From Protonemura montana (taxonomy: Eukaryota > Arthropoda > Insecta > Plecoptera > Nemouridae): a stretch of 64,000 bases of DNA. Location: assembly GCA_947568835.1 (NCBI GenBank), contig OX387605.1:992001-1056000 (forward strand), written 5' to 3'. Of the stretch, positions 1,535-62,200 are shown in pieces (positions within the stretch are counted from its first letter, which is position 1; each line of letters starts with the position of its first letter). Below the pieces are notes generated by a model, which saw nothing but the letters and a program-made list of their open reading frames with translations, did not search any database and was not told the DNA's origin. A program made the translations under genes and the position numbers.

Positions 1535-1775
1535 TGACATCTGGTCATGCGGCACTGGTCTAATGGCGTCGGTGAATGAGTGGATGATGATGACCCTAAC
1601 CTAGCCTAGAAGGTAGGAGGGGAAACCCGGTGCCGGCACGTAGCCTACTCCTGTCGAAGACCAAGGGGACTACCGGCTTAACATCCCTTCCGAAGGACGG
1701 TACAACGCGAACAACAGGATTCCTCCACAAATCCTTGCTGTCGAGAGGTTGATAAGCAAGGCGAGTGAAGTTGCT
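1535..1775 (-). mobile_element. SINE body (5S-headed family), reverse orientation
   Basis: It shares the tract cctagcctagaaggtaggag through the 'cgaacaacaggattcc' region with copies at 16515-16740, 29040-29330 and 44700-44920. It is contiguous with the 91-bp head array at 1776. Confidence 0.85.
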
Positions 1776-2615
1776 GTCCTAACTTTCATCCCTCCAACCT
1801 CTCTCCCGAACAGAACTGGTCATGTGTATGATGGTCACCCTTCCAATACCTGACCCAGCGCAGTGTTGCTTAACTTTCATCCCTCCAACCTCTCTCCCGA
1901 ACAGAACTGGTCATGTGTATGATGGTCACCCATCCAATACCTGACCCAGCGCAGTGTTGCTTAACTTTCATCCCTCCAACCTCTCTCCCGAACAGAACTG
2001 GTCATGTGTATGATGGTCGCCCATCCAATACCTGACCCAGCGCAGTGTTGCTTAACTTTCATCCCTCCAACCTCTCTCCCGAACAGAACTGGTCATGTGT
2101 ATGATGGTCACCCATCCAATACCTGACCCAGCGCAGTGTTGCTTAACTTTCATCCCTCCAACCTCTCTCCCGAACAGGAATGGTCATGTGTATGATGGTC
2201 ACCCATCCAATACCTGACCCAGCGCAGTGTTGCTTAACTTTCATCCCTCCAACCTCTCTCTTAAACAGAACTGATCATGTGTATGATGGTCACCCATCCG
2301 ATACCTGACCCAGCGCAGTGTTGCTTAACTTTCATCCCTCCAACCTCTCTCCCGAACAGAACTGGTCATGTGTATGATGGTCAACCATCCAATACCTGAC
2401 CCAGCGCAGTGTTGCTTAACTTTCATCCCTCCAACCTCTCTCCCGAACAGAACTGGTCATGTGTATGATGGTCACCCATCCAACACCTGATCCAGCACAG
2501 TGTTGCTTAACTTTCATCCCTCCAACCTCTCTCCCGAACAGAACTGGTCATGTGTATGATGGTCACCCATCCAATACCTGACTCAGCGCAGTGTTGCTTA
2601 ATTTTCATTTCTCCA
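1776..2615 (-). repeat. 91-bp array derived from a 5S-rRNA-like SINE head
   Basis: About nine 91-bp units in reverse orientation. Read on the minus strand each contains agttaagcaacactgcgctg followed by ggtattggatgggtgacc, resembling the internal A box and C box of 5S rRNA. Confidence 0.9.
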
Positions 2616-2639
2616 ACTCTAAACAATTGAGATTTTTTT

Positions 2640-15281: not shown

Positions 15282-18200
15282 GTAACGTAGCATTTTATTA
15301 TTATTACCAACACTATAACCGTCTCAAAATTAATGCCCAAATGGGCATTTTTTTTTCATTGCCCCGTTGGGGCATCAATTTTTGAGACTGTTATAGTGTT
15401 GATAATAATAAAATACCCCGCGCATTGCAAGCGTTTGCAATTTAAATCAGATATCATCCTAATACAAATGCTGTGACGTGTCGCTTGTTTTTATTGTTGG
15501 TTCCTGACATTGCTTTACACTACGCGGTCTCTCGTCCTAAGTGCACTCCAAGGAAATCAATTAATCACGTTCTAATTAGACCCCATTTAATGTCCTTCTA
15601 GTCAAGGATTGGCAAGATAATAAAACAATTAGCTGAGAAACATGGATACAAGATATTTTCACAAAAGTATAATTGAAGTGACTCGATATTTTTTTAAATT
15701 AAAATTGCCTCTTCTATGACTTACCCTTCCCACCACTCGTTTTCTGAACTCCACTGCACTTGCATCTGGTATTTCCTGCGTTACAAATTACCCAAAAATA
15801 CTGGAAAGTAGCTTCTGTCCAATGAAAATAGAAAAAAAAACTTTAAAATCTGTATCTATCTGAGATACACTGTAACTTATCTGTAACTTATCTATCTGAG
15901 ATACAATATAAAGATACTTTATAAAAAAGGTATTTCATATCTACAGATACCAATACTTTAGTATCTTGCGATACCTATCTCCTGCTACTTGTATGGGAGG
16001 TTTTTAAGTTTAAGGCGGTACTTGATAGTTACTCTGTTTCTCCTCTGGCTTAAATATCCCCTTGTACCTGCAACTAACTCACGAGGTCACCACGACCCAA
16101 CGGTTTGGCGTGTTGGAAACACCGGTCCTCGTTAGATCACCGCAGTTAAGCAACACTACGCTGAGTCAGGTATTGGATAGGTGACCATCATACACATGAC
16201 CAGTTCTGTTCGGGAGAGAGGTTGGAGGGATGAAAGTTAAGCAACACTGCGCTGGGTCAGGTATTGGATGGGTGACCATCATACACATGACCAGTTCTGT
16301 TCGGGAGAGAGGTTGGAGGGATGAAAGTTAAGCAACACTGCGCTGGGTCAGGTATTGGATGGGTGACCATCATACACATGACCAGTTCTGTTCGGGAGAG
16401 AGGTTGGAGGGATGAAAGTTAAGCAACATTGCGCTGGGTCAGGTATTGGATGGGTGACCATCATACACATGACCAGTTCTGTTTGGGAGAGAGGTTGGAG
16501 GGATGAAAGTTAGTACAGCAACTTCACTCGCCTTGCTTATCAACCTCTCGACAGCATGGATTTGTGGAGGAATCCTGTTGTTCACGTTGTAGCGTCCTTC
16601 GGAAGGGACGTTAACCCGGTGATCCCCTTGGTCTTCGACAGGAGTAGGCTACGTGCCGGCACCGGGTTTCCCCTCCTCCCTTCTAGGCTAGGTTAGGTTC
16701 ATCATCATCCACTCATCAAACAAGTGCCGCATGACTAGACTTGTAAACAGAACGTCTTCTCAGGGCTGGGTAATCTTCAACTTCCCGGTGAGCTACGAGC
16801 AGGCGTCGTTGTTAGAGGAGGTCCTCACGGGCCGACGACTGCCGAGCACAGAACCCCTGGAGCCAGAGACTGTTGAGGTGATCGAAGAAATCGAAGAGCG
16901 GACCATTGATGAGACTTCTGAAGAGGTACAGCACCTTCCTTGTCTGACAGCAACCAGTTTGATATTCACTGAGAAAATGCATACCAGTGAATTGAAATGT
17001 TTTATTTGTTAAAAGCGAATATCTGTAATGTGTACCTACCTACCTATATGAAGGTATGCAGAGTCTATGATATCCATGACATAGACAGCCTAGTTATTGC
17101 ATGTGTTGGTATTTGTATGTTTTTATTTAGCATTTTGCTATTCTATTGCATTACATTTGTGTCATATGTTGCCTTACATTTCTACTAAATTCATTGACAT
17201 TTCTACTTTTTCTAATCTTTGCAGGTCACTTTTTATATTCTCTTATGCCTAAGTAAATTATTTCCCACATTTATCCATTTTATTTACAATCTTACATTCA
17301 TACCTTGTTCTATAACTAATTTCTTTAAACTATAACCTATTTTTTAAATAGTTTCCGCTGCCTAAAGTCAAAAATGTTAAAAATAATGTAACAAAATTAG
17401 TTATAAGTCTTTGCACAGGGCATAAGGATTAACAAACACTATTTGAAATGGGTTTTGAATGCTAAGTAAAGGACAGCTATATTACTGAGCATTCAAAATA
17501 GTTTTTGTTAAAACTATTGCTAAGTTTAAATCAAGTAGACATGAGTCTAAAAACCATCATAAAGGGCATTCGGATGATCAAACTATGGAGTCATATGGGA
17601 CTGCATTTGCCACATTTAGGCTACATTTAGGCTACATTTAGACTATATTTGGGCTATATTTGGGCTATATTTGGACTATATTTGGGCTATATTTGGGCTA
17701 TATTTGAGCTATATTTGGGCTATATTTGGGCTATATTTGAGCTATATTTGGGCTATATTTGGGCTATATTTGGGCTGTATTTAGGCTGTATTCAGGCTGT
17801 ATTCAGGCTGTATTCAGGCTGTATTCAGGCTGTATTCAGGCTGTATTCAGGCTGTATTCAGGCTGTATTCAGGCTGTATTCAGGCTGTATTCAGGCTGTA
17901 TTCAGGCTGTATTCAGGCTGTATTCAGGCTGTATTCAGGCTGTATTCAGGCTGTATTCAGGCTGTATTCAGGCTATATTCAGGCTATATTCAGGCTGTAT
18001 TCAGGCTGTATTCAGGCTGTATTCAGGCTGTATTCAGGCTGTATTCAGGCTGTATTCAGGCTGTATTCAGGCTGTATTCAGGCTGTATTCAGGCTGTATT
18101 CAGGCTGTATTCAGGCTGTATTCAGGCTGTATTCAGGCTGTATTCAGGCTGTATTCAGGCTATATTCAGGCTGTATTCAGGCTGTATTCAGGCTGTATTC

Positions 18201-21200: not shown

Positions 21201-24200
21201 TTGATAATTATGTTTGAAATTTCCTGCCTAGGAAAATTGGAGCCATGTCTCACAGTTCGATTTTTATTTGATTCAAAACTTGCCTTTTACTCACCCGCAG
21301 CAGCTCGGTAATACTCTTCATGCATGCCTATGAAAGTTATTGAAGAAATTGAGCCCAAACGCTGTTATTTACGTTCGTTTTACGTAAAATATAAATAATT
21401 TTGCAAAAAGTTTGACAGATGCATTCATTTGTTTGGTTTTTTGACCACTGCAGGGTGAACGAATTCTTAAACTTATCTTTGTGGCAGTGCATTCAGGATA
21501 TTCAAACGTCAATGTCAATGTCAACGTCAATGTCAAATTCTTTTAAAAATCTCTAGAACTGAAGGGAAATAAATGACAGAACTGAAATATTGTTGGTGTC
21601 TTGGCTAGCAAGATTGGCTAGCCCAGATTGTAAAAGGTATTTCACAAGTTTCACCCTCTAAGAAAAATTTCAAGAAATCATGCACGAAAATTTTTTGACA
21701 GCTAACGTCGTTTGTTTTCGAAATTGTCATCGTAGTCACTTTGGAATTCACAGAGTTTCCACAATGCAGTAACCCCGAGTGACATAAGCGGCAAATTTCA
21801 AACAAAATAAACGGGGGTACTGTATGGTATTGCATGGTACTTTTGGTTGTGGTCTTATTCAAACTAAAATGCCAACTTTCTCAAAATCTAAAGCGGCCGT
21901 AGGCAGCGGGTACTGCTAGTATAACATGTAGCTCTAGGTGGGCGTGTCCTTGTATCACAATGTAGCTCTAGGTGGGCGTGTCCTAGTATCACCATGTGGC
22001 TCTAGGTGGGCGTGTCCTGGAATCGCCAAGGTGGATGTGACCTTGAACCAAGATATTGCCTCTACTGCAGGTGAACCGGAGCGCCGATACGTTGCAACTA
22101 ATCAACGACTACTACCTGACGATGCTGGCGAAGGATTTGCCTGACACACGACTTGCCAAGATGCACGCTGCAAGGCTCCACTTGGACCCCGAGGAAGTCG
22201 AGGAGGCTGGAGGCGAAGTCCACACATGTGTGACCAGCACAAAGCTTCCACTTGAAGAGGAGCGCATGCGCGGACGTCGCGCTAAAGAAGTCACTAAGAC
22301 GCTGCTCACCGACGTCGACAGCGATGCCAGCGTCGCGACGCCGTTCCACGAGTTTATCAGCGAGACGACGCTTTCTTTGGCTGGGCACGTAAAGAAACTG
22401 CAGGACACACAGGTAGATGAACCAGTTTTATACAATTATATTCACTTTGATTGTTTTTAGACTCAAATCTACTTGATTTATCCATCCAATACCTGACCCA
22501 GCGCAGTGTTGCTTAACTTTCATCCCTCCAACCTCTCTCCTGAACAGAACTGGTCATGTGTATGATGGTCACCCATCCAATACCTGACTCAGCGCAGTGT
22601 TGCTTAACTTTCATCCCTCCAACCTCTCTCCCAAACAGAACTGGTCATGTATATAATGGTCACCCATCCAATACCTGACCCAGTGCAGTGTTGCTTAACT
22701 TTCATCCCTCCAACCTCTCTCCCGAACAGAACTGGTCATGTGTATGATGGTCACCCATCCAATACCTGACCCAGCGCAGTGTTGCTTAACTTTCATCCCT
22801 CCAACCTCTCTCCCGAACAGAACTGGTCATGTGTATGATGGTCACCCATCCAATACCTGACTCAGCGCAGTGTTACTTAACTTTCATCCCTCCAACCTCT
22901 CTCCCAAACAGAACTGGTCATGTGTATGATGGTCACCCATCCAATACCTGACTCACCGCAGTGTTGCTTAACTTTCATCCCCCCAACCTCTCTCCCGAAC
23001 AGAACTGGTCATGTGTATGATGGTCACCCATCCAATACCTGACCCAGCGCAGTGTTGCTTAACTTTCATCCCTCCAACCTCTCTCCCGAACGGAACTGGT
23101 CATGTGTATGATGGTCATCCATCCAATACCTGACTCAGCGCAGTGTTGCTTAACTTTCATCCCTCCAACCTCTCTCCCGAACAGAACTGGTCATGTGTAT
23201 GATGGTCAACCATCCAATACCTGACTCACCGCAGTGTGGCTTAACTTTCATCCCTCCAACCTCTCTCCCGAACAGAACTGGTCATGTGTATGATGGTCAC
23301 CAATCCAATACCTGACTCACCGCAGTGTTGCTTAACTTTCATTCCTCCAACCTCTCTCCCGAACAGAACTGGTCATGTGTATGATGATCACCCATCCAAT
23401 ACCTGACTCAGCGCAGTGTTGCTTAACTTTCATTCCTCCAACCTCTCTCCCGAACAGAACTGGTCATGTGTATGATGGTCACCCATCCAATACCTGACCC
23501 AGCGCAGTGTTGCTTAACTTTCATCCCTCCAATCTCTCTCCCGAACAGAACTGGTCATGTGTATGATGGTCACCCATCCAATACCTGACTCAGCGCAGTG
23601 TTGCTTAACTTTCATCCCTCCAACCTCTCTCCCAAACAGAACTGGTCATGTATATAATGGTCACCCATCCAATACCTGACCCAGTGCAGTGTTGCTTAAC
23701 TTTCATCCCTCCAACCTCTCTCCCGAACAGAACTGGTCATGTGTTTGATGGTCACCCATCCAATACCTGACCCAGCGCAGTGTTGCTTAACTTTCATCCC
23801 TCCAACCTCTCTCCCGAACAGAACTGGTCATGTGTATGATGGTCACCCATCCAATACCTGACTCACCGCAGTGTTGCTTAACTTTCATTCCTCCAACCTC
23901 TTTCCCGAACAGAACTGGTCATGTGTATGATGGTCACCCATCCAATACCTGACCCAGCGCAGTGTTGCTTAACTTTCATCCCTCCAACCTCTCTCCCGAA
24001 CAGAACTAGTCATGTGTATGATGGTCACCCATCCAATACCTGACTCACCGCAGTGTTGCTTAACTTTCATTCCTCCAACCTCTCTCCCGAACAGAGCTGG
24101 TCATGTGTATGATGGTCACCCATCCAATACCTGACCCAGCGCAGTGTTGCTTAACTTTCATGCCTCCAACCTCTCTCCTGAACAGAACTGGTCATGTGTA

Positions 24201-27200
24201 TGATGGTCACCCATCCAATACCTGACCCAGCGCAGTGTTGCTTAACTTTCATTCCTCCAACCTCTCTCCCGAACAGAACTGGTCATGTGTATGATGGTCA
24301 CCCATCCAATACCTAATCCAGTGCAGTGTTGCTTAACTTTCATTCCTCCAACCTCTCTCCCGAACAGAACTGGTCATGTGTATGATGGTCACCCATCCAA
24401 TACCTGACTCACCGCAGTGTTGCTTAACTTTCATTCCTCCAACCTCTCTCCCGAACAGAACTGGTCATGTGTATGATGGTCACCCATCCAGTACCTGACC
24501 CAGCGCAGTGTTTCTTAACTTTCATCCCTCCAACCTCTCTCCCGAACAGAACTGGTCATGTGTATGATGGTCACTCATCCAATACCTGACCCAGCGTAGT
24601 GTTGTTTAACTTTCATCCCTCCGAACAGAACTGGTCATGTGTATGATGGTCACCCATCCAGTACCTGACCTAGCGCAGTGTTGCTTAACTTTCATCCCTC
24701 CAACCTCTCTCCCGAACAGAACTGGTCATGTGTATGATGGTCACCCATCCAGTACCTGACCCAGCGCAGTGTTGCTTAACTTTCATCCCTCCAACCTCTC
24801 TCCCGAACAGAACTGGTCATGTATATGATGGTCACCCATCCAGTACCTGACTCAGCGCAGTGTTGCTTAACTTTCATCCCTCCAACCTCTCTCCCGAACA
24901 GAACTGGTCATGTGTATGATGGTCACCCATCCAATACCTGACCCAGCGCAGTGTTGCTTAACTTTCATCCCTCCAACCTCTCTCCCGAACAGAACTGGTT
25001 ATGTGTATGATGGTCACCCATCCAGTACCTGACCCAGCGCAGTGTTGCTTAACTTTCATCCCTCCAACCTCTCTCCCGAACAGAACTGGTCATGTGTATG
25101 ATGGTCACCCATCCAATACCTTACCCAGCGCAGTGTTGCTTAACTTTTATCCCTCGAACCTCTCTCCCGAACAGAACTGGTCATGTTTATGATGGTCACC
25201 CATCTAATCAATGCTGTAAATTATAAGTCATGGCCTAACTTGTTATTAGATGGACGTGCTGAAGAAGCAACGCTCGATTCCTCCACCGAAGCCCCAGTTG
25301 AAGGCTAAGTTGAAAGGTAAAGCTAAGGGTAAAAGCAAGGCGGCGTCAACAACGCAAGCCAGCGATGCACCTGCTCCAGTACGTGGTACCAAGGAAATGT
25401 TCGAGGAATGGGAGGCGGTGCTATTGAACGAGGTGGATCGTGTTCACGCGCGCCTGCAGGTGCTAGAAGCTCGGGCCTCGACTGATCTCAGTCAGGTGGT
25501 GGCCGCCGCCAGGAAGACGTTTCATCGCCTTAGTGACGAGATCGAGTCGCGGTACGAACGCGAGATCGCCAGCATAGACGTCCTTGTCAAGGTGGAGACA
25601 TTGATACAAAGAGGACCATTTAGATTTGATATCTTATTTAAATTGCAAACGCTTGCAATGCGCGGGGTATTTTATTATTATCAACACTATAACCGTCTCA
25701 AAAATTGATGCCCAAACGGGGACTCAATTTGTGAGACGTTTGTTCATAATAATAAAAAATGCCGGTTTATACGATCTGCTATTGAACTACCGTTACAAAT
25801 GCAAGGATATGTTGCGTATGATTTTAAAATTATATCGTTGACATGCGCCTTTTGATTGACAATTTATTATGGAAACAACTGTGGGAACAAAAATGATTAC
25901 TGTCCGAATTGTGCCTGAAGGTTGTTTCCAGACTCATGTCTACTTGGTGTAAACATAGCACTAGTTTTAACAAAAACTATTTCAACTGGGTTTTCAATGC
26001 TAAGTGAAGAACAACTAAATTTCCCAACGTTTCGTAACTTGCACCTGTTACTTTATCAAGGGTAAGAGCAGTCCTGACAATTTTCCAATAACAAAAGAAC
26101 CACATAAAATTATAACAATTACCAAGTTCAAGCTTCCTAAATGCATCTAAATAAAATAATCAGGGTCAATAACTTAAAAACTAATGTATTTTGTATTTTC
26201 TGAAATAAAATCCCGAACAACTTTGTGCCTGTAGGTGTTCAGCAACGCTATCGAGGAGGAACTGCCGATCCAACAGGAATGCGTCCTGGAGCAGGACACG
26301 TTCTTCGTCCGCCAGAAGGTGCTGTTATTCCCCGATCCTCCCCCGCCCCCACCAATACCACTCTGCGAGCGCCTCCTGGACTCGGAGTTCCGTATCGGAG
26401 ATCTACTAGCATTGCATCAAAAGATGGCCAGCATTGTATCAGCTCCGTACCTTCCCACGCGTGCCTTTGTCTCGATCTTGGACGACGTGATCACGTGCCG
26501 TGCCTCCGAGGGCGAGGTAGTTGTGCTACCTGCCACGTGGAACGTTGCGATCGCAGATGTGCCGCCAATAGTGACCGCGATCTTCGGTGCTACCGAGTAC
26601 GTCGACTGGAAGGACTTTGTTGTCTACGCGCTCGACTTGCGCTATCCGACGTCGCAGGAGATCTTAATGCATCGGGAACAGTTCAACAGATTCGATCCGG
26701 AGGTACGTTCCTGGATAGAGCATAACATCCAGCCAGCTCATCTCAAATAACATGGATAGAGCATAGGATCTAGTCAGCTCATCTCAAATAACATGGATGG
26801 AGCATAGGATCCAACCAGCTGATCTCAAATAACCTGGATAGAGCATAGGATCCAGCCAGCTGATCTCAAATAACATGGATAGAACATAGGATCCAGCCAG
26901 CTGATCTCAAATAACCTGGATAGAACATAGGATCCAGCCAGCTGATCTCAAATAACCTGGATAGAGCATAGGATCCAACCAGCTGATCTCAAATAACCTG
27001 GATAGAGCATAGGATCCAGCCAGCTGATCTCAAACAACCTGGATAGAGCATAGGATCCAGCCAGCTGATCTCAAATAACCTAGGTAGAGCATAGGATCCA
27101 ACCAGCTGATCTCAAATAACCTGGATGGAGCATAGGATCCAGCCAGCTGATCTCAAATAACCTGGATAGAGCATAGGATCCAGTCAGCTAATCTCAAATA

Positions 27201-30200
27201 ACCTGGATAGAGCATAGGATTAAGCCAGCTGATCTCAAATAACCTGGATAGAGCATAGGATCTAGCCAGCTGATCTCAAATAACCTGGATATAGCATAGG
27301 ATCCAGCCAGCTGATCTTAAATAACCTGGATAGAACATAGGATCCAGCCAACTGATCTCAAATAACCTGGATAGAGCATAGGATCCAGCCAGCTGATCTC
27401 AAATAACCTGGATAGAGCATAGGATCCAGCCAGCTGATCTCAAATAACCTGGATAGAACATAGGATCCAGCCAGCTGATCTCAAATAACCTGGGTAGAGC
27501 ATAGGATCCAGCCAGCTGATCTCTAATAACCTGGATAGAACATAGGATCCAGCCAGCTGATCTCAAATAACCTGGATAGAGCATAGGATCCAGCCAGCTG
27601 ATCTCAAATAACCTGGATAGAACATAGGATCCAGCCAACTGATCTCAAATAACCTGGATAGAGCATTGGTTCACCATGGCAACCGCTACCTGTGGCTATT
27701 GAAGGTGATTGTTGGTTGGTCACCAGCTGACAGAGGCTGTGAGCTACGACGACTTTATGCGCGTGCGCCTGTGGTTCGAGGAGCGTGACGTTGAGGACCA
27801 ACAAGAGGCGCTGCGTCTCACCCTCGTGAAGCAGCTGCTGTTTACCATGTTCAAGGTTAGCACACCAACAATGACCGACCTTTATAATCGTGTTTACCTT
27901 AAGATGCAGTTTAGTTTGCTCGCTATGTTATATTGTAGTCTGTTTCACACACCCTATTTGCTGGATTACTAATATGAGTTTGGTTTGGTGAAGTGGTTCA
28001 GAGCAGTGGGTGAATGTTGTGGTGAGTTTCGGATTTGCTCTGTTGTGATTGAATTGTGGTTCTAAAAAGGACCTAAAAAGTCGACGTTTCATCGGCGTTG
28101 GCGCCGACATCTTCAGGACTTCAGTCCTGAAGAGCGACTTTTTAGGTCCTATTTAGGACTACAAGTCAATCAAAACAGAGCAAATCCGAAACTCACCACA
28201 ACAATATATATTTGTTGAAATTCTTTGGTCAGACTCAATCTAAACTTCAACTGGTATAGGAGTTTGATGTCACCTAACCTTACGATGACAAAAAGACGAT
28301 TATCCTACTGCTAACATATACCATGCCACTGAGGGCTTGTATAGGACTTTCTTGGTCGACTAGACTTGTCATGCTATTGATTGCTATCCTATTATAAATG
28401 ATCCACACATATTCTGCCCCTCGGCAAGGAGCTGGGCCAGTGGTTGGGTCTATGACTGGGTCTATGACTGGGTCTATGGTCTATGGTTGGGTCTATGACT
28501 GGGTCTATGACTAGGTCTATGGTTGGGTCTATGACTGGGTCTATGGTCTATGACTGGGTCTATGGCTGGGTCTATGGCTGGGTCTATGGCTGGGTCTATG
28601 ACTGGGTCTATGACTCGGTCTATGACTGGGTCTATGGTCTATGACTGGGTCTATGACTGGGTCTATGATCTATGACTGGGTTTATGACTGGGTCTATGAC
28701 TGGGCCTATGACTGGGTCTATGACTATGGTCTATGGCTGGGTCTATGACTGGGTCTATGGTCTATGGGTTCCAGGTTGACGACACTAGATGTCACTATAC
28801 CACGCTGCTTCTCTACTTCTGCAAGGACGAGGACCCCGCGGTGGGATTCGCCAAGGCACTCACGCTCTCGCTAGGCTTGCGCGTGCTGATCACCGAGGAA
28901 GAATACCAAGTATTTTTATTTTGTATTTTATGAGCTGTTGTTGAATTCCACGTTTCAATGTTTCAACATTGTCATCTGTTGCTGTCTTACTTAACATATA
29001 TATATAACCAAGCTCGCACAAACCTAACAATCTCTATGAAAGTTAGTACAGCAACTTCACTCGCCTTGCTTATCAACCTCTCGACAGCAACTTCACTCGC
29101 CTTGCTTATCAACCTCACGACAGCATGGATTTGTGGAGGAATCCTGTTGTTCGCGTTGTACCGTCCTTCGGAAGGGACATTAAGCCGGTGGTCCCCTTGG
29201 TGCTCTTCGACAGGAGTAGGCTACGTGCCGGCACCGGGTTTCCCCTCCTCCCTTCTAGGCTAGGTTAGGTTCATCATCATCCACTCATTGACCGACGCCA
29301 TTAGACCAGTGCCACATGACCAGATGTCAAAACAGTGCTATGTTAAACATCACAAATAATATAATAATAAGATAAAATAATCTAAATTATAAAACTCTTC
29401 TTGCTCAGCTTGAAATGGCACATGGACCACAATCCACAAATCTTAGCACAAAGTCCATTAATTAAAAAATGTTGTGAGAAAAAAGAGAAAGATGTTGGCA
29501 CCACTTTACTCAGCACCAAGGGACCGTGCCTATGATGAGTGGGAGGAGCTAAAGTAAGCTGCAGGGCTGCCAACTAAACAGTCTGCTCTGCGCGCTGCCT
29601 TGCGTGAGGCTGCCGAACTAATCGTTGGGTCATTGTAGACTTACCAAGACGACGGGCTGTCAGAAAGCGCTAGCGTCGCCGTCCGCAACGCCATCTACTT
29701 GGCCGTGGAAGAGCTGATCGACGAAGTGGTGAACGAGGTAACTAAACCGACCAATAACTACATTATAATATTGTAGTTACAACAATAACAACACCGCCAT
29801 CTTGTTTGGTTGTCAAGGTGATCGAGATCGTGGCTGGCATAACGATCAAGGAAGTACTGGACGAGACGGAAGGCGGTGACGTCGCGACGCCGGTGAACGA
29901 CGACTGGTCGACGCACGTGCCGAGCACGACGCCAGACGACGCCGACGACGCCGACACGACGCCCACGTGTCCGACGAGCAGCGAGCGTGACGTCACGGTG
30001 GAGGCGGCGTCGCGACGCTCGGTGCTCGTCGAGAACGTCGAGTCTGGTGGCGTCGCCGAGGAGTGCGGTGGCTTGTACCCGTGCACGCCCTACTTGAGCT
30101 TCGGCACCGTTCTTAACTTGCTCGCCGTCACCATGCCGTGGCAGGACTGGCAGGTCTCATAACCCCCCCCCCCCCCCCAAACCCCCTATTCCTGTAGATC

Positions 30201-31563: not shown

Positions 31564-33195
31564 CTGTAATCATTTACCAAGCTTGTTGATTTCTAGAATC
31601 ATGTCTACTTGATGTAAACTTAGCGCTAGTTTTAATAAAAACTATTTCAACTGGGTTTTCAATGCTAAGTGAAGAACAACTAAATTTCCCAACGTTTCGT
31701 AACTTGTACCTGTTACTTTATCAAGGGTAAGAGCAGTCATGACAATTTTCCAATAACAAAAGAACCACATAAAATTATAACAATTACCAAGTTCAAGCTT
31801 CCTAAATGCATCTCAATAAAATAATCAGGGTCAATAACTCAAAAACTAATGTACTTTGTATTTTCTGAAATAAAATCCCGAACTATAGGACTGCCTTGGA
31901 GCTCCGGGTTCGTACCTTGCAGCCCTGGGTTCGTACCTTGGTTTCTTGCTGTGGCGTCAACGGGACATTAGCGCTGCCGCAGCTGTTGCATGTGACTTTG
32001 CCAGGACCTCGACCTCTTGCCTTGCCTCCAGTGAAACGCCTCTCATTGAACGGGCACGCGGTGGTTCGTTGTAAGTTCGGTCGACGCCCGGTGGACTTCT
32101 CCGGCTCGTGGAAGCCGTGCTCGGGGGTGGCGGGGGTGGTAGAGGGGGTGGAGGCGGTGGAGGGGGTGGAGGGGGTGGAGTGGGTGGATACCCGGTACGC
32201 AACCACCGACACCTGGGAGTGGAATTAAGATAGAATGAAGGATGGATGCACCTGAAATCCTAGCTAAAAAGATGAGTAGGGACAATACAGTATCTAATCT
32301 ACCTGATTTGTTGTGCAAAACCAAGCTATTATAAATGCAATAATTGCATAACCTAAGTACCCTAATGGCGGCGGTGATTGAATGGCTGAATATGAGGGTA
32401 GTGATGAACTTAGCCTAGCCTAGAAGGGAGGAGGGGAAACCTCTCTCCTGAACAGAACTGGTTATGTGTATGATGGGCACCCATCCAATACCTGACCCAG
32501 TGCAGTGTTGCTTAACTTTCATCCCTCCAACCTCTCTCCCGAACAGAACTGGTCATGTGTATGATGGTCATCCATCCAATACCTGACCCAGCGCAGTGTT
32601 GCTTAACTTTCATTCCTCCAACCTATCTCCCAAACAGAACTGGTCATGTGTATGATGGTCACCCATCCAATACCTGACTCAGCGCAGTGTTGCTTAACTT
32701 TCATCCCTCCAACCTATCTCCCAAACAGAACTGGTCATGTGTATGATGGTCATCCATCCAATACCTGACCCAGCACAGTGTTGCGCTGGGTCTGGTATTG
32801 GAAGGGACGTTAAGTCGGTGGTCCCCTTAGTGCTCTTCTACAAGAGTAGGCTACATGCCGGCACCAGGTTTCCCCTCCTCCCTTCTAGGCTAGGTTAGGT
32901 TCATCATCATCCACTCATTCACCGACGCCATTAGACCAGTGCCGCATGGCCAGATGACAAAACAGTGCGTTGTTAAACACCACAAATAATAATAATAATC
33001 CTATGTATGCTTGAAGTTACAGGGAAATGACTGCATGTTTTTATCTCGTCCCCCGGGCACTAAGACCGGGTTCCTATAGTAGTTACCTACCTGAGAGTGA
33101 GCGTCGTGCAGGTGTCTCACTAGTTGGCCCGAGGTGTCGCCAGTGGCGTATGGGATCTCTACGCCACACACTGGACACTGGGCTCTCAAGGGCAT
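31294..33195 (-). CDS. LITAF-domain protein with N-terminal zinc-finger-like segment, 3 exons
   Basis: Exons on the minus strand run 33195-33091, 32212-31937 and 31563-31294 (about 216 aa, all phase 0). LITAF-domain proteins are small zinc-binding, membrane-associated endosomal/lysosomal proteins. Seen: an N-terminal CPVCG...LVRHLHDAH segment (CxxC then HxxxxH), a Thr/Pro-rich linker, then VTCNSCGSANVP (first CxxC), a hydrophobic Cys-rich stretch GALCVLMCWPVCFAGIA, and FCPRCRHYVGTYD, matching the LITAF ending HxCPxCxxxxGTY. The tail is Ser/Asp-rich. ATG at 33195 was chosen as the first Met before the finger; an earlier exon cannot be excluded. The intron 32213-33090 holds inverted SINE copies. 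It converges on SPEF2, with about 110 bases between stops. The family call is solid; the combination with the N-terminal finger is inference from phase. Confidence 0.78.
31595..31880. repeat. Dispersed 'tcccaacgtttcg' family copy
   Basis: It fills most of intron 2 of the LITAF-like gene and is nearly identical to 25915-26215. Confidence 0.88.
31937..32212 (-). CDS. LITAF-like gene exon 2 (Pro/Thr-rich linker, first CxxC)
   Basis: The acceptor actcccag precedes 32212. 92 codons end at the donor accaag|gtacga. A second identical donor lies 21 bases further at 31916, adding seven residues in frame if used. The CxxC is in VTCNSCGS. Confidence 0.75.
32345..33000. mobile_element. Inverted SINE pair with 91-bp head array
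   Basis: A reverse SINE 3' fragment (about 32350-32440) abuts about four reverse 91-bp units (32440-32795). A forward SINE body (about 32805-33000) follows, ending in an (AAT)n tail. The whole unit lies in intron 1 of the LITAF-like gene. Confidence 0.8.
33091..33195 (-). CDS. LITAF-like gene exon 1 (CxxC...HxxxxH segment)
   Basis: It encodes MPLRAQCPVCGVEIPY onward through HLHDAHSQ, then the donor cag|gtaggt at 33091. The spacing of the two Cys and two His suggests a small zinc finger. Confidence 0.68.
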
Positions 33196-34897: not shown

Positions 34898-35040
34898 CCA
34901 AACGGGTTTCTCCTCCTCCCTTCTAGGCTAGGTTAGGTTCATCATCTTCATCCACTCATTCACCGACGCCATTATACCAGTGCCGCATGGCCAGTTGTCA
35001 AAACATTGCGTCTTTAAACACCACAAAAATAAAATAAATC
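34898..35040 (+). mobile_element. SINE 3' fragment
   Basis: It matches the common SINE 3' region (cctcccttctaggctaggtt onward) and ends near caccacaaaaataaaataaa. Confidence 0.8.
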
Positions 35041-35295: not shown

Positions 35296-38200
35296 GTAAG
35301 TTCCTCTGGGCTATCAAACAATAGGGCGTGGTCAGTTAAGTTAGCTAGATCACAAAAAAGATTAAAAAAAAGGAGTGTTTTTGCACTAATTATACACCTT
35401 TTTGCTCCCCGTAAAACCAAATTTTCTTGTAAGATCACCGAAGTTAAACAACACTGTGCTGAGTCAGGTATTGGATGTGTGACCATCATACACATGACTA
35501 GTTCTGTTCAGGAGAGAGGTTGGAGGGATGAAAGTTAAGCAACACTGCGCTGAGTCAGGTATTGGATGTGTGACCATCATACACATGACCAGTTCTGTTC
35601 AGGAGAGAGGTTGGAGGGATGAAAGTTAAGCAACACTACGCTGGGTCAGGTATTGGATGGGTAACCATCATACACATGACCAGTTCTGTTCGGGAGAGAG
35701 GTTGGAGGGATGAAAGTTAAGCAACACTGCGCTGGGTCAGGTATTGGATGGGTAACCATCATACACATGACCGGTTCTGTTCGGGAGAGAGATTGGAGGG
35801 ATGAAAGTTAAGCAACACTGCGCTGAGTCAGGTATTGGATGGGTGACCATCATACACATGACCAGTTCTGTTCGGGAGAGAGATTGGAGGGATGAAAGTT
35901 AAGCAACACTGCGCTGAGTCAGGTATTGGATGTGTGACCATCATACACATGACCAGTTCTGTTCGGGAGAGAGGTTGGAGGGATGAAAGTTAAGCAACAC
36001 TGCGCTGGGTCAGGTATTGGATGGGTAACCATCATACACATGACCGGTTCTGTTCGGGAGAGAGATTGGAGGGATGAAAGTTAAGCAACACTGCGCTGGG
36101 TCAGGTATTGGATGGGTAACCATCATACACATGACCAGTTCTGTTCGGGAGAGAGGTTGGAGGGATGAAAGTTAAGCAACACTGCGCTGGGTCAGGTATT
36201 GGATGGGTAACCATCATACACATGACCGGTTCTGTTCGGGAGAGAGATTGGAGGGATGAAAGTTAAGCAACACTGCGCTGAGTCACGTATTGGATGGGTG
36301 ACCATCATACACATGACCAGTTCTGTTCGGGAGAGAGATTGGAGGGATGAAAGTTAAGCAACACTGCGCTGAGTCAGGTATTGGATGTGTGACCATCATA
36401 CACATGACCAGTTCTGTTCGGGAGAGAGGTTGGAGGGATGAAAGTTAAGCAACACTGCGCTGGGTCAGGTATTGGATGGGTAACCATCATACACATGACC
36501 GGTTCTGTTCGGGAGAGAGATTGGAGGGATGAAAGTTAAGCAACACTGCGCTGGGTCAGGTATTGGATGGGTAACCATCATACACATGACCAGTTCTGTT
36601 CGGGAGAGAGGTTGGAGGGATGAAAGTTAAGCAACACTGCGCTGGGTCAGGTATTGGATGGGTAACCATCATACACATGACCGGTTCTGTTCGGGAGAGA
36701 GATTGGAGGGATGAAAGTTAAGCAACACTGCGCTGAGTCACGTATTGGATGGGTGACCACAGTGGTTAATTTGTAACGATCAAGGTGGGTTCGCTCTCAA
36801 TTGAATTCAGGTGCTGTTCTAGATCGTGTGTTTTCTTGGGGGGAACAAGGAAGCCGTGCCAAAAGTAAAAAAAACATTGAAAAAATTTCTATACTCTCGC
36901 TATGCTTTGTCGGCGCTGCCTGACAAAGGCTAGCGTTGCCTGAACTTAGCGAAGACCAACGAACGGCTTGGCGTGTTGGAAACGCTATGAATAAAGTATC
37001 CAATGCTACAGACCCCCTTGATTTTGGCGAGTTAAGCAATACGTCGTTAAGCAATGCGTCGTTAAGCTAGAAAAGATCTTCGGTTTGAGCCACCCCCTGT
37101 TAAAACTGTGGACGGATTGCTGATTTACTTGACTATTACAGACCGAGCCTTGCGTCACAGAATGGACACCTGCTGCTAGTGGCGGGCGAGGGCAGAAACA
37201 TCTCATTGACCACCAGTGGCGCCGGCTGCGTAAACGTCAACGGCGAGAACCTCGTGCTTATCGCTAAGATGGTAAGCTTTCCTTGGAAGCAACTAGTAGT
37301 GCACCCGCTCCCTATAAAACCAATTATTCTCGTTAGATCACCTAAGTTAAGCAGCACTGCCCTGGGTCAGGTATTGGATGGGTGACCATCATATACATGA
37401 CCAGTTCTGTTCGGGAGAGCGGTTGGAGGGATGAAAGTTAAGCAACACTGCGCTGGGTCAGGTATTGGATGGGTGACCATCATACACATGACCAGTTCTG
37501 TTCGGGAGAGCGGTTGGAGGGATGAAAGTTAAGCAACACTGCGCTGGGTCAGGTATTGGATGAGTGACCATCATACACATGACCAGTTCTGTTCGGGAGA
37601 GAGGTTGGAGGGATGAAAGTTAAGCAACACTGCGCTGGGTCAGGTATTGGATGGGTGACCATCATACACATGACCAGTTCTGTTTGGGAGAGAGGTTGGA
37701 GGGATGAAAGTTAAGCAACACTGCGCTGAGTCAGGTATTGAATGGGTGACCATCATACACAAGACCAGTTCTGTTCAGGAGAGAGGTTGGAGGGATGAAA
37801 GTTAGTGCAGTAACTTCACTCGCCTTGCTTATCAACCTCTCGACAGCATCGTTAAGCTGGAAATTAAGGTGACCTGGACCCAAAAAAATGTAAAAAAAAA
37901 TGTATTTATTTTTTTAATTGATGTCTTAGCTTTTGAAACATATCACAATGATTATTGTAGTATTATTATTAAAATAACACGAATTTTTTATTCAGATCGA
38001 TTCGCAAAACATTTAAAAAATATGGCAGCCACTTTTTGAATATTACAGCCAATTTTTGTTCATTTTTAAATCCTTCGTAATTCTGTTCTGATGAAAATAT
38101 CCTGATGATACAAATTTTAAATTGTTGCGCCAACATTCGTCATCGCAACTGCAGTGTTTTATTTCGCTCGGAAGTGTGGGAACCCCAGTTCTTCAATCTT

Positions 38201-44200: not shown

Positions 44201-47200
44201 CTTGGGGCTTTGATAGATTAATTATAAATTAATTAACTGACATTAACGAACTGTTCTTCTGATCCGCAGGGCGTAGTCTGCGATAAGGACGTAAATGAAT
44301 GCGCTAATTTTGCCGGCACAGACCTCGGCTGTCAGAACGGTGCCACCTGCCTCAACAAACCTGGCACGTACGAGTGAGTAACAGACAGGAGGTTGATAAA
44401 CAAGACTAGGGAAGTTGCTGTACTAACTTTCATCCCTAACAACTTCACTCGCCTTGCTTGGCAACCTCTCGACAGCAACTTCACTCGCCTTGCTTATCAA
44501 CCTCTCGACAGCAACTTCACTCGCCTTGCTTATCAACCTCTCGACAGCAACTTCACTCGCATTGCTTATCAACCTCTCGACAGCAACTTCACTCGCCTTG
44601 CTTATCAACCTCTCGACAGCAACTTCACTCGTCTTGCTTATCAACCTCTCGACAGCAACTTCACTTGCCTTGCTTATCAACCTCTCGACAGCAACTTCAC
44701 TCGCCTTGCTTATCAACCTCTCGACACCATGGATTTGTGCAGGAATCCTGTTGTTCGCGTTGTACCGTCCTTCGGAAGGGACGTTAAGCCGGTGGTCCCC
44801 TTGGTCTTCGACAGGAGTAGGCTACGTGCCAGCACCGGGTTTCCCCTCCTCCCTTCTAGGCTAGGTTAGGTTCATCATCATCCACTCATTCACCGACGCC
44901 ATTAGACCAGTATTACCACTAAACCATCAGAATTATTACTACTATTATCATTATAACTGTATTTTAATAATATTACTTTTATGTACTATCTTGCCAATCC
45001 GTAACGGGATTCATGGCTTGTAAATGTTTATTTTTATTCAAGCCAATAAAGGAAATCAACAATGAAACTTGTCGCAGGTGCACCTGCGCCCCCGGATGGT
45101 TTGGTGTCCACTGCACGCGACGGAACGACGACTGCTCCCAGGGATCGAACCAGGACCTTTGCGGCCACGGCCTCTGCATCACCCAGGAGCCGAAGGGGTT
45201 CGCCTGCATCTGTGATCAGGTTCGTGCCTGGACCTGAACCGTTCGTGCCTGGACCTGAACCAAGAGCAGCAATGTTCACTTTGCACGGGAAGAATTCATG
45301 GCAACATCTTAAAATAGAACCGTTAGAGAGATAATAATATGTGGTTTGCTGATTCCTTTGCAAATACTTACTTCCAACCTGTCAGTTCAAACCTTAACAA
45401 AAACTATTTTAACTGGGTTTTCAATGCTAAGTGAAGAACAACTGAATTTCCCAACGTTTCGTAACTTGTACCTGTTACTTTATCAAGGGTAAAAGCAAGG
45501 GTTTACAGGTAAAAGTTACGAAACGTTGGGAAATTCAGTTGTTCTTCACTTAGCATTCAAAACCCAGTTGTGCTAGTTTTTGTTAAAACTAGTGCTAAGT
45601 TTACATCAAGTAGACATGAGTCTAAAAACTATCATAGTTCAAACCTAGTTTTTTGAAATGTAGTGAAATCAGGGCAAGCTACGTTGTGATGGCGACGTGT
45701 TTTTGTTGTGAAGTCCGCCATTTTGTCAAGTCTCAGCGTTGGTGTTGACAGTTGCTGTGATGTGATGAACTTTTTGCCCCAACAAAGACTTCTTCACAAC
45801 AGCACTGACATTATCAGGATCAGATCGCGTCCTAGAGCTCTTCACCATTCCAAGTCTTACCGTATTTTGAAGAAGCACTTGTCAGTTGATTGTTTTTAGA
45901 CTCATGTCTACTTGATGTAAACTTAGCACTAGTTTTAACAAAAACTATTTCAACTGGGTTTTCAATGCTAAGTAAAGGGCTACATTTTGTTTAGATGCAT
46001 TTAGGAAGCTTGAACCAGGTAATTGTTATAATTTTATGTGGTTCTTTTTTTATTGGAAAATTGTCAGGACTGCTCTTACCCTTGATAAAGTAACAGGTAC
46101 AAGTTACGAAACGTTGGGAAATTTAGTTGTTCTTCACTTAGCATTGAAAACCCAGTTGAAATAGTTTTTGTTAAGCACTCGACACTTTACTGTGGCGACG
46201 TGTTTTCTCTGTCAAGTCTAAGCCCGTTACCGTGGCGATGTGTTTTTGTCGTGAAGTCAGCCATTTTGTCAAGTCTTGCCGTGTGTTTCTACGCAGGGCT
46301 GGACTACGGATGGAGTCACCAAGGTGTGTTCTACCGACGTGAACGAATGCGCAGGCGCCAACCCGCCGTGCTCGCGCAACCCACCTGTCGCCTGCGTGAA
46401 CCTGCGCGGGTCATTCCGCTGCGCAGCTTGTCCAACAGGTAGCGGGCAATTGGCAGCCTTGCAAGGGATCGGGCATTGGATTTGTTTTTATTTTCCTCTC
46501 AACATTAACATAGTAATTGTGTAGGCATCATCAGTAATACCGTTGAGTGTAGGTTCTAGGTAGAGAAACAACGTCAATGTTACAGTCTCTGCGTGAAAGA
46601 TGGCCGCCAAATGACTACCTTTCCGACAAACATGCAGAGTACCGGAACATCACGTTAAGTGGAGCCACTGTCGTATGAAATTTAATTTCGATATTTCTCG
46701 TAGGTTACTCGCTTTTTAATATCGTTACATGTATATCAATTGTTGGGGTAAACATTGATGGAGATTTTTTAAGCATGAAAAGTCTCAAAAGGGAGTTAAC
46801 CTACGAGAATTCAAATAAGTACTTACGAGAATTCTTTGATATTGCTTGGTATTCGAAGACAGAACTGAACTTGAAAACTTGCTACCAACTCGCCAAATCT
46901 TTGTGGCTCAGTAGATTTTTGGATCAAATTTCAAATAAGTTGTCTCTGTTACTCCCAAGTTTTTTCCTAACCTAACTTTGATCGTACCTGCAGTGAACGA
47001 CGGTGGCACTTTTTATTTACCCTGGGTAACATGTCACAATGTTCATATCAAAAGTTGGTCTTTATTTGCAGTATACTTAAGTAGGTTGGGTTTATATAAC
47101 ATTGGGCTTTAGAAAAATAATAATAATATAATATTTATTTGTTTATTGTCATTTAGAACATATACACGATATTTCAGTCATTTTTTTAAAATTAAATGGT

Positions 47201-59200: not shown

Positions 59201-62200
59201 CAATTCCTTTTCTAGAGTTAACCTGATGGGAAGGGGTGGGGCTAGGTTACGCGAGTTGGCAACACAGCTTAGATGGTCGAGTCGAGACGGGTTGAAATGT
59301 TGACACCTGACAAGATGGACATGAATCGAACTCCAAGTGGCTGTGATTGTTCCAGGTCCACGTTGTGAGAGGCAGACTGACGCCTGCGCTAGTTCTCCGT
59401 GCTCGAACGGTGCAACGTGCAACGTCACCGCCACCGGCTTCCGGTCAGTAAACGACGACCCTCGACAACTGCTAGCGGTTGCCATGGAGATACTTCGAAG
59501 CCAAAGCGGCCATCTTGGGAGTCCCTGATTTTCAGTTCTCTAAAAGACCCAACGTTGACTTGACTCTGTATGGGATCCATAGGGCCGTGTCTTCACTTGG
59601 CAGAGTTATTTGTGTCCATCCTAGAGATTTTCACAAAATATTTTGGAGATTTTCATGCGCGACAGGTGGAGATTGGGGTCCAAGTAGCTCAATTGGTTAG
59701 AGCAACACCCGCGACAGGTGGAGATCGGGGTCCAAGTAGCTCAATTGGTTAGAGCAACACCCGGGACAGGTGGAGATCGGGGTCCAAGTAGCTCAATTGG
59801 TTAGAGCAACACCTGCGACAGGTGGAGATTGGGGTCCAAGTAGCTCAACTGGTTAGAGCAACACCCGCGACAGGTGGAGATCGGGGTCCAAGTAGCTCAA
59901 TTGGTTAGAGCAACACCCGCGACAGGTGGAGATCGGGGTCCAAGTAGCTCAATTAGTTAGAGCACCACCCGCGACAGGTAGAGATCGGGGTCCAAGTAGC
60001 TCAATTGGTTAGAGCAACACCCGCGACAGGTGGAGATCGGGGTCCAAGTAGCTCAATTGGTTAGAGCAACACCTGCGACAGGTGGAGATTGGGGTCCAAG
60101 TAGCTCAATTGGTTAGAGCAACACCCGCGACAGGTGGAGATCGGGGTCCAAGTAGCTCAATTGGTTAGAGCAACTCCCGCGACAGGTGGAGATCGGGGTC
60201 CAAGTAGCTCAATTGGTTAGAGCAACACCCGCGACAGGTGGAGATCGGGGTCCAAGTAGCTCAATTGGTTAGAGCAACACCCGCGACAGGTGGAGATCGG
60301 GGTCCAAGTAGCTCAATTGGTTAAAGCAACACCCGCGACAGGTGGAGATCGGGGTCCAAGTAGCTCAATTGGTTAGAGCAACACCCGTGACAGGTGGAGA
60401 TCGGGGTCCAAGTAGCTCAATTGGTTAGAGCAACACCTGCGACAGGTAGAGATTGGGGTCCAAGTAGCTCAATTGGTTAGAGCAACACCCGCGACAGGTG
60501 GAAATCGGGGTTCAAGTAGCTCGATTGGTTAGAGCAACACCCGCGACAGGTGGAGATCGGGGTCCAAGTAGCTCAATTGGTTAGAGCAACACCCGCGACA
60601 GGTGGAGATCGGGGTCCAAGTAGCTCAATTGGTTAGAGCAACACCCGCGACAGGTGGAGATCGGGGTCCAAGTAGCTCAATTGGTTAAAGCAACACCCGC
60701 GACAGGTGGAGATCGGGGTCCAAGTAGCTCAATTGGTTAGAGCAACACCCGCGACAGGTGAAGATCGGGGTTCGAGTAGCTCAATTGGTTAGAGCAACAC
60801 CCGTGACAGGTGGAGATCGGGGTCCAAGTAGCTCAATTGGTTAGAGCAACACCTCCGACAGGTGGAGATCGGGGTCCAAGTAGCTCAATTGGTTAGAGCA
60901 ACACCCGCGACAGGTGAAGATCGGGGTTCGAGTAGCTCAATTGGTTAGAGCAACACCCGTGACAGGTGGAGATCGGGGTCCAAGTAGCTCAATTGGTTAG
61001 AGCAACACCTCCGACAGGTGGAGATCGGGGTCCAAGTAGCTCAATTGGTTAGAGCAACACCCGCGACAGGTGGAGATCGGGGTTCGAGTCCCTGATGGGG
61101 CATCAATTTTTAAGACGTTTACAGTGTTGATAATAATAAAATACCAGCATGTTTTGAAAGTTTTTTGTCGACTCCCACTTACCGAATATAAAACTGTGCA
61201 CCATGTACCAATACGTCAACGTGTTCACGTACAGATGCACCTGCCCCCCGGGCTACGCTGGCGACACCTGTGCAGATCAGCAGCAAGCTTGCGGTAATCG
61301 GATCCGAGGGCAGTCTGGTTCGGTCAAGTACCCAAACAGTCCATCAGGAGCGCCGTACTCTGCCCGCGTCAGCTGCGCTTGGGTCCTTCAAGTGAACACC
61401 AGCCACGTTGTCAACGTCACATTCTCCAGCTTTCACCTCGAGAGCTCCACAGGTTGCAGTTACGACTGGCTTCAGGTTGGTTCGTTATTATTCTACCAGT
61501 CCCTAACCCTAACCCTAACCCTTACCCTTACCCTTACCCTTACCCTTACCCTTACCCTATTCCCATCCCATCTCATTGCAAAGAAAATTATCTAAAGTAA
61601 ACAACAAATACTTCTGATCAGTATGATGGTTATAGACTCATGTCTACTTGATGTAAACTTAGCACTAGTTTTAACAAAAACTATTTCAACTGGGTTTTGA
61701 ATGCTAAGTGAAGAACAACTGAATTTCCCAACGTTTCATAACTTGCACCTGTTACTTTATCAAGGACTGCTCTAACCCTTGATAAAGTAACCGGTACAAG
61801 TTACGAAACGTTGGGAAATTTAGTTGTTCTTAACTTAGCATTGAAAACCCAGTTGAAATAGTTTTTATTAAAACTAGTGCTAAGTTTACATCAAGTGGAC
61901 ATGAGTCTGGAAACCATCACTATCTCCTTCCCCAGTCCCTATCCCTGTTGAAGTCTAGGAAAACCAGTTCATCGAGTGCATTGGAGTGTAAACTTGATGT
62001 AACGTTGCTAGTGTCTATAAACTATATGCGTTCAGACAGATTCATCTGATTCTTATGACAGGTCAGTAACATTTAAACCTTGTTAATGTTTTGGGTTCAC
62101 TACGTCAGCTGCCCTCGGGGAAGTTAAGCCGGTGGTCCCCTTGGTGCTCTTCGACAGGAGTAGGCTACGTGCCGGCACCAGGTTTCCCCTCCTCCCTTCT

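Follow-up and report, generated by a model that had tools for sequence, protein, structure and literature searches.

Satellites derived from short interspersed elements (SINEs) have been described in squamates, where these sSat arrays come from tRNA-related SINEs. Their tandem units, of about 70-290 nt, are taken from head and body parts of the SINE, and in snakes the unit includes promoter box B (PMC10702118). The available text of that study leaves open whether SINE-derived satellites occur outside squamates. Here we describe six arrays of one 91-bp unit in a 64,000-nt stretch of the genome of the stonefly Protonemura montana (assembly GCA_947568835.1, contig OX387605.1, positions 992,001 to 1,056,000 of the forward strand; hereafter the window), which very probably are minisatellites derived from a SINE with a 5S-rRNA-like head. 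As in squamate sSat, the tandem units are drawn from a part of a SINE, SINE ends lead into or trail the arrays, and the loci are dispersed (a few to hundreds of copies in squamates). Unlike the squamate elements with their tRNA heads, the SINE here has a 5S-like head, and the sequence between boxes A and C lies within the unit.

Several other systems share some of these features; all comparisons are with those parts of the cited papers that were available. In the limpet Patella caerulea, the satellite PcH-sat derives from the Nin-SINE (PMC11121367). Like the stonefly arrays it is an invertebrate satellite with a SINE segment, but it uses the 3' part of the SINE, lacks RNA polymerase III (Pol III) boxes, is mainly pericentromeric and makes up about 10% of the genome. 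The frog satellite PcP190 (PMC11675491) also has a 5S-like part in each unit; it differs in its unit of about 190 bp, its 120-bp 5S-like region and its reported derivation from 5S rDNA rather than from a SINE. Among SINEs, the closest likeness is to HaSE3 of Helicoverpa (PMC3272025), in which a 5S head with box A, intermediate element (IE) and box C is joined to an unrelated body and a 3' tail of the long interspersed element (LINE) type. 5S-rRNA-derived SINEs are classed as SINE3, as cited in PMC4698564. HaSE3 differs in that the word 'tandem' is absent from the available text of PMC3272025, which describes no arrays. Minisatellites derived from Alu and B1 (PMC6947457, PMC3389668) resemble the present arrays in the short direct repeats that flank the future unit and differ in that they come from other SINE families, in mammals. 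Mollusc satellites show abrupt junctions and links to mobile elements (PMC5139131). None of the matches listed in the open-licence literature, judged by titles and abstract openings, describes a satellite from a 5S-headed SINE. SINE-derived satellites are already known from squamates and a limpet, and the 5S-headed source is, with some reserve, new.

The 91-bp arrays and the SINE they adjoin

Tandem Repeats Finder (TRF) located six arrays of the 91-bp unit, 6,061 bp in total, with the unit oriented on the minus strand in three and on the plus strand in three. A first-pass annotation, made from the letters alone, had named these same six places on both strands, and its limits for the array at 22.5 kb (22478-25207) were correct to within 4 bp. 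The arrays are:

1780..2617, minus strand: array A (1.8 kb), 9.2 copies by TRF; its 5' edge lies within a unit, near unit position 79
16144..16512, plus strand: array B (16.1 kb), 4.1 copies by TRF, with four full units
22482..25208, minus strand: array C (22.5 kb), 30.1 copies by TRF; head and body both absent
32438..32784, minus strand: array D (32.4 kb), 3.8 copies by TRF; rearranged
35441..36759, plus strand: array E, 14.5 copies by TRF, without body; lag analysis gives a 5-unit higher-order pattern
37344..37804, plus strand: array F (37.3 kb), 5.1 copies by TRF

The same annotation had called these arrays satellites. The name somewhat overstates their scale: with 4-30 copies per locus, dispersed loci and one array inside an inferred intron, they are minisatellite-sized. 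The unit comparisons use 64 complete units (A 9, B 4, C 29, D 3, E 14, F 5), partial units at array ends being excluded. Unit D03, which runs into the body and inflates the linker rate, was masked in counts of variation.

The unit consensus is AGTTAAGCAACACTGCGCTGGGTCAGGTATTGGATGGGTGACC followed by 48 bp. It comprises the box A-to-C stretch of 5S (44 bp if the final A of the linker before it is included) and a 47-bp linker, and holds only half of 5S. When aligned without gaps to a mollusc-like 5S sequence, the 44-bp half was identical at 34 of 44 positions, with box A, IE and box C in the order and at the spacing of 5S; this alignment was better than 1,000 of 1,000 shuffles. The margin was narrow with human and Drosophila 5S, against which 2 and 4 of 1,000 shuffles, respectively, did as well. 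For the head and half together (16096-16190), none of 1,000 shuffles was as good against the mollusc-like and Drosophila sequences, and 17 of 1,000 were as good against the human one. Rfam 5S_rRNA matched 16096-16214 at 46.7 bits (gathering threshold 38; E 1.5e-6). These results uphold the earlier proposals that the unit contains 5S-like box A and box C sequence and that the head at 16092-16190 is similar to 5S rRNA. No second Rfam 5S match appeared in the window, even at E up to 5. Because array E alone gave no Rfam match at E up to 10, it is the 16.1-kb copy, together with direct alignment, that ties the bare unit to 5S. The 47-bp linker showed no similarity to 5S in alignment. Folding of the unit, the head copy and the array D stretch was in no case clearly better than that of shuffled sequence (z -1.22, 0.88 and -0.72).

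The 16.1-kb copy is collinear and retains nearly the whole body: a 5S head of 48 bp is followed by four units, which run on into the SINE body. Other pieces of the same element are found across the window:

16096..16143, plus strand: 48-bp 5S-like stretch before box A, the head of locus B (Rfam 5S_rRNA)
16513..16740, plus strand: SINE body after array B (blastn to other copies, alignment)
1541..1777, minus strand: SINE body continuing from array A, 95.5% identical to body B over 202 bp by blastn; also aligned
32402..32441, minus strand: part of the SINE body that a deletion has joined to array D (blastn, 95% over 40 bp)
32800..32951, plus strand: SINE body opposite in orientation to array D (blastn, 90.8% over 119 bp; alignment)
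35426..35440, plus strand: probable 5S-head remnant before array E, 15 bp (26 of 30 positions match locus B)
37329..37343, plus strand: 5S-head remnant before array F, 15 bp (27 of 30 positions match locus B)
37805..37849, plus strand: start of the SINE body after array F, 45 bp, 95.6% identical to body B
29046..29288, plus strand: SINE copy G, with no 91-bp array (TRF, blastn); a 36-bp body segment is tandem at 29048-29125
44389..44889, plus strand: SINE copy H, consisting of an inverted body start, a 36-bp body array at 44440-44726 and then body (TRF, blastn)
34903..34992, plus strand: 3' fragment of the SINE body (blastn, alignment)
62118..62265, plus strand: 3' fragment of the SINE body, then the 3' end of the element (blastn, tail pattern)

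The 30 positions compared for the head remnants of E and F run across the junction, 15 of them within the array. Arrays A, B and F enter the same body at one identical junction. Five of the six arrays adjoin SINE head or body, the link of array E being its 15-bp head remnant only; array C adjoins neither. Upstream of their head remnants, E and F have about 22 bp in common, unlike B. At array D the body is inverted on one side, and a deletion join at GGTT lies on the other. The first-pass annotation had derived the arrays from the 5S-like head of a SINE, and the collinear 16.1-kb copy and the array-body joins at other loci bear out an origin from head plus linker. Arrays adjoin SINE bodies at loci other than 16.1 kb as well, at the same junction at 1.8 and 37.3 kb and with body on both sides at 32.4 kb.

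Shared non-5S body pieces are present at eight loci (blastn, alignment). Copies D and G have AAT-type 3' tails, and the copy at 62118 is without such a repeat. Judged from its sequence, the element appears to be a 5S-rRNA-derived, SINE3-like SINE, with a 5S head and a dispersed body with a simple-repeat tail. By the same kind of evidence the arrays would be SINE-derived minisatellites: the unit corresponds to one unbroken segment of the SINE, and at several loci the array still borders on SINE sequence.

A text search with the letters of the SINE central domain gave no SINE paper in the best 20 of 80 matches. Exact-pattern searches of viral contigs with two patterns of the unit and with the SINE body gave no match, and neither did the array C stretch against phages nor the SINE body against plasmids. 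Among genome contigs the body pattern had a single match, of 23 bases, in a Rickettsia contig; no SINE surrounds it, and it was judged to be due to chance. As these collections contain little animal DNA, the negatives carry little weight. The sole reverse-transcriptase reading frame of the window lies at 38960-40228 (Pfam RVT_1, E 1.6e-28). None of three SINE tail patterns was found near this frame, and a partner LINE may lie elsewhere.

Three local arrangements are recorded here as observations in their own right. In the array D region (32380-32960), oppositely oriented body pieces flank the array, with a short palindromic join. In copy H (44389-44889), the inverted body start stands beside the 36-bp array, as in 5'-inverted retrotransposon insertions. 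At 37031-37067, shortly after a 5S-head fragment at 36962-36983, there are two and a half copies of the 15-bp box-A-like sequence GTTAAGCAATACGTC.

Probable start and spread of the arrays

At array B the word AGTTA stands at both unit breakpoints, at the start of box A and at the end of the linker that enters the body, and at the array F junction the common word is AAGTTA (6 bp). The two words at B are separated by a whole number of units, which would have been a single unit before the array formed. Matches of at least 5 bp at 91-bp spacing were found at 0.59% of 34,467 non-array positions. A second array of the same SINE, with a 36-bp unit from the body, is present at 44440-44726, and about two copies of its unit at 29048-29125. 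In a copy without this array, the corresponding segment is bounded by ACAGCA, matches of at least 6 bp having a null frequency of 0.43% of 35,732 positions. Because AGTTA is found at both breakpoints, the 91-bp arrays are likely to have begun when a short direct repeat allowed slippage or unequal exchange. In the Haber-Louis route, short direct repeats of 5-10 bp flank the segment that turns into the unit, and the AGTTA and ACAGCA junctions fit this route as set out in the available text of PMC6947457.

We propose that the first tandem duplication would have occurred in a source SINE, where two AGTTA words at a distance of 91 bp slipped or exchanged unequally, and that more events of either kind would have lengthened the array. 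SINE copies would have spread carrying a multi-unit array, or gained one very soon after inserting. Some arrays would later have lost head and body by deletion or moved as bare DNA (array C, and array E as regards its body). The Pol III boxes would be passengers of the duplicated segment and not the cause of the array. Taken as a whole, this account of slippage-born SINE minisatellites is in our judgement very probable.

The unit consensus was identical over all 91 positions at arrays A, B, C and F; that of E differed at one position (8 of 14 units) and that of D at one (three units). No position was changed in at least 80% of the units at any of the five loci examined for this (A, B, C, E and F). 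The adjoining bodies carry changes from the body consensus at 5 of 237 positions at A, 8 of 228 at B and 2 of 45 at F. If each array had been built separately at its own locus, by late growth of a SINE copy with one unit, 8.0-9.2 founder changes would be predicted at A, B and F, and none was seen (Poisson P 1e-4 to 3e-4). The lack of founder changes therefore suggests that the arrays were probably already multi-unit at insertion or soon after. Polymorphisms are also common to the loci, which likewise speaks against late independent growth: 16 of the 23 variants present in at least two units occur at several loci, G21A at all six, and divergence within loci (0.042) is close to that between loci (0.046; permutation p 0.09). 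Positional tests within arrays added little. First units were not significantly more diverged than random units of their own locus (p 0.12), and A21 in the leading units of three of four loci (A, B and E, as against F; C and D excluded) gave P 0.044, too weak to use. A divergence test of last units (p 0.0008) was set aside, as two partial units in it included 12 bp of flank.

A number of observations weigh against the account that we propose, some of them in favour of late growth in place. Units of A, B and F are somewhat, though not significantly, less diverged than their adjoining bodies (31/1,638 versus 15/510, Fisher p 0.16), which leans to some later growth or homogenisation. The nearest neighbour of a unit lies in the same locus at a rate of 0.55, compared to 0.28 by shuffling. 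Private variants have spread within arrays (C18G and T30C in C; G37T, G40A and A59G in E), and other minisatellites are plentiful in the window. The founder test depends on its inputs: when the 45-bp body of F and the odd 3' end of B are left out, 3.7 changes are expected (P 0.024). The less-diverged units, same-locus neighbours and private variants, together with the 5-unit pattern of E, indicate that growth in place continued too; as the whole explanation, late and independent growth is unlikely. Other points touch the spread and the starting state. No convincing target-site duplication was found at any of eight places (A, B, D, G, H, SINE fragments I and J, and array C), the longest word common to copy boundaries being 9 bp, at A and 36 bp off the boundary, and for this reason we infer, rather than read directly, the retrotransposition of array-bearing copies. 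No copy in the window has a single unit between head and body, which makes the pre-array state a reconstruction. C and E are both without a SINE body and so call for either a route at the DNA level or a subsequent loss. Finally, the account draws on one 64-kb window, which is a small sample.

Array C appears to lie within a gene:

22413..25249, plus strand: inferred intron of a SPEF2-like gene, 2,837 bp, with GT...AG boundaries and open frames before and after

The array makes up 2,727 of the 2,837 bp of this intron. Pfam hits to SPEF2_D5 and SPEF2_C are located further out and flank it; a search of solved structures gave no match for the exon after the intron or for an exon piece at 16731-16970. 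Bare arrays such as C, and perhaps E, could have come in as extrachromosomal circles or by template switching and not by retrotransposition. Two features of array C favour such a route: it starts and ends at almost the same point of the unit (phases of about 29 and 37), which amounts to whole units plus 9 bp, and its edge unit carries ATTAGATGG, whose inverted partner stands across the 3' splice site of the intron, 36 bp away (25200-25253). By our estimate, equal phase has roughly a one-in-nine chance, and it could also follow from deletion in the flank; we regard entry as bare DNA as possible but not probable. A reversed order, in which a 5S-rDNA-derived satellite existed first and was later captured by a SINE as its new head, would fit with the existence of 5S-derived satellites such as PcP190 and with arrays without body at C and E. 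It fits poorly with locus B, where the 48-bp 5S head precedes the first unit and no other and the body follows the last unit alone. Both meet the unit boundaries in register, an arrangement that an internal duplication would produce. The reversed order also fits poorly with the linker half, which is not 5S and continues into the body at A, B and F. We consider a satellite-first origin very unlikely. The linker likewise tells against a direct, PcP190-like origin of the unit from 5S rDNA.

The repeated Pol III boxes

The first-pass annotation had further proposed up to 30 potential Pol III type-1 promoters per array, a proposal that the units do not support. Conservation is no higher in the 5S half than in the linker: distinct variants number 33 on the 44 5S-derived sites and 22 on the 47 linker sites, deviation per site is 0.030 and 0.020, respectively, and variable sites are 27/44 and 21/47 (Fisher p 0.14, an excess that is not significant). 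When the 44-site stretch was shifted circularly along the unit, 20 of 91 shifts had as many deviations as the 5S half. The limits of box A, IE and box C were set by us. Counting from the least variable of 91 windows, box C and IE rank 71 and 89 by deviations and 89 and 82 by distinct variants. Box A has 8 deviations in 64 units, with 8 or fewer in 6 of 91 windows of the same length, and its rank by distinct variants (39 of 91) is ordinary. The promoter half bears no mark of constraint.

If selection kept the units as Pol III type-1 control regions, transcribed or titrating TFIIIA, one could account for the box A-to-C spacing, which equals that of 5S, and for the few deviations of box A taken by itself. 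The same holds for the lack of a terminator: TTTT in the sense direction occurs in no array, and the first lies 72-596 bp beyond the arrays. The 5S-like satellite PcP190 is, moreover, transcribed in frogs (PMC11675491). Against such selection stand the lack of any extra conservation in the 5S half, the place of box C and IE among the more variable windows, and the lack in the unit of the 5S part upstream of box A. Retroposed 5S promoters need upstream signals and are presumably silent or weak, according to the available text of PMC3272025. On the sequence evidence, we would give working promoter arrays only a very slim chance.

A related reading, which we hold to be quite improbable, is that the SINE moves as a multi-promoter element. 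Its RNA would carry variable 5S-type control regions, and the arrays would be present at insertion and later detach as intron-filling minisatellites. Extra control regions may then raise the element's own transcription. SVA elements, which bear a variable number of tandem repeats (VNTR), are an analogue.

Other repeats of the window and wider bearing

Merging of tandem arrays of all kinds (period at least 9, length at least 100 bp, at least 3 copies) gave 23 arrays that cover 26,293 bp, or 41% of the window, the 91-bp arrays included. Because the window is so rich in tandem arrays of every kind, the simplest reading is that the genome, at least here, is prone to minisatellites and that the SINE is one of several seeds. 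The largest array of the window, at 48528-57747, spans 9.2 kb with a 34-bp unit.

Two 52-bp arrays (41364-41832 and 59658-61083) are built from the 5' part, on the box A side, of a tRNA-like sequence. Each lies beside one tRNA-like match (41868-41940 and 61030-61102; Rfam tRNA, 35.8 and 37.3 bits), and they parallel the 5S arrays with another Pol III head. The sequence next to them has an inverted-repeat form at other places, GCAAACGCTTGCAATGCGCGGGG...TATTTTATTATTATCAACACTATAAC, like that of a foldback or MITE-like DNA element (MITE, miniature inverted-repeat transposable element); it is found at 15298-15438, 25645-25708, 41311-41365 and 61103-61139. Long hairpins at 28009-28212 and 62783-62977 matched Rfam MIR5998 and MIR7996 (E 6e-10 and 4e-7) far below gathering (58.7 of 180 and 56.4 of 119 bits) and are probably foldback elements. 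Nine copies of AACCT (TTAGG on the other strand) at 59110-59154 and a CCCTTA run at 61501-61558 are located near EGF- and CUB-domain reading frames. The genes of the window mark it as animal DNA, and the AACCT run is no more than a hint of an arthropod.

The 91-bp arrays join two lines of observation that had so far been separate, on satellites that come from SINEs and on those that come from 5S sequence. Within a single stretch of DNA one can follow the likely passage from a mobile element through a tandem array to an array standing bare in an intron, together with a probable starter repeat. The finding bears on the question, raised in PMC10702118, of SINE-derived satellites beyond squamates, for which the limpet case has also been published (PMC11121367). 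The arrays may also let one ask, in a natural setting, whether 5S control regions that are presumably silent as single retroposed copies become active in tandem.

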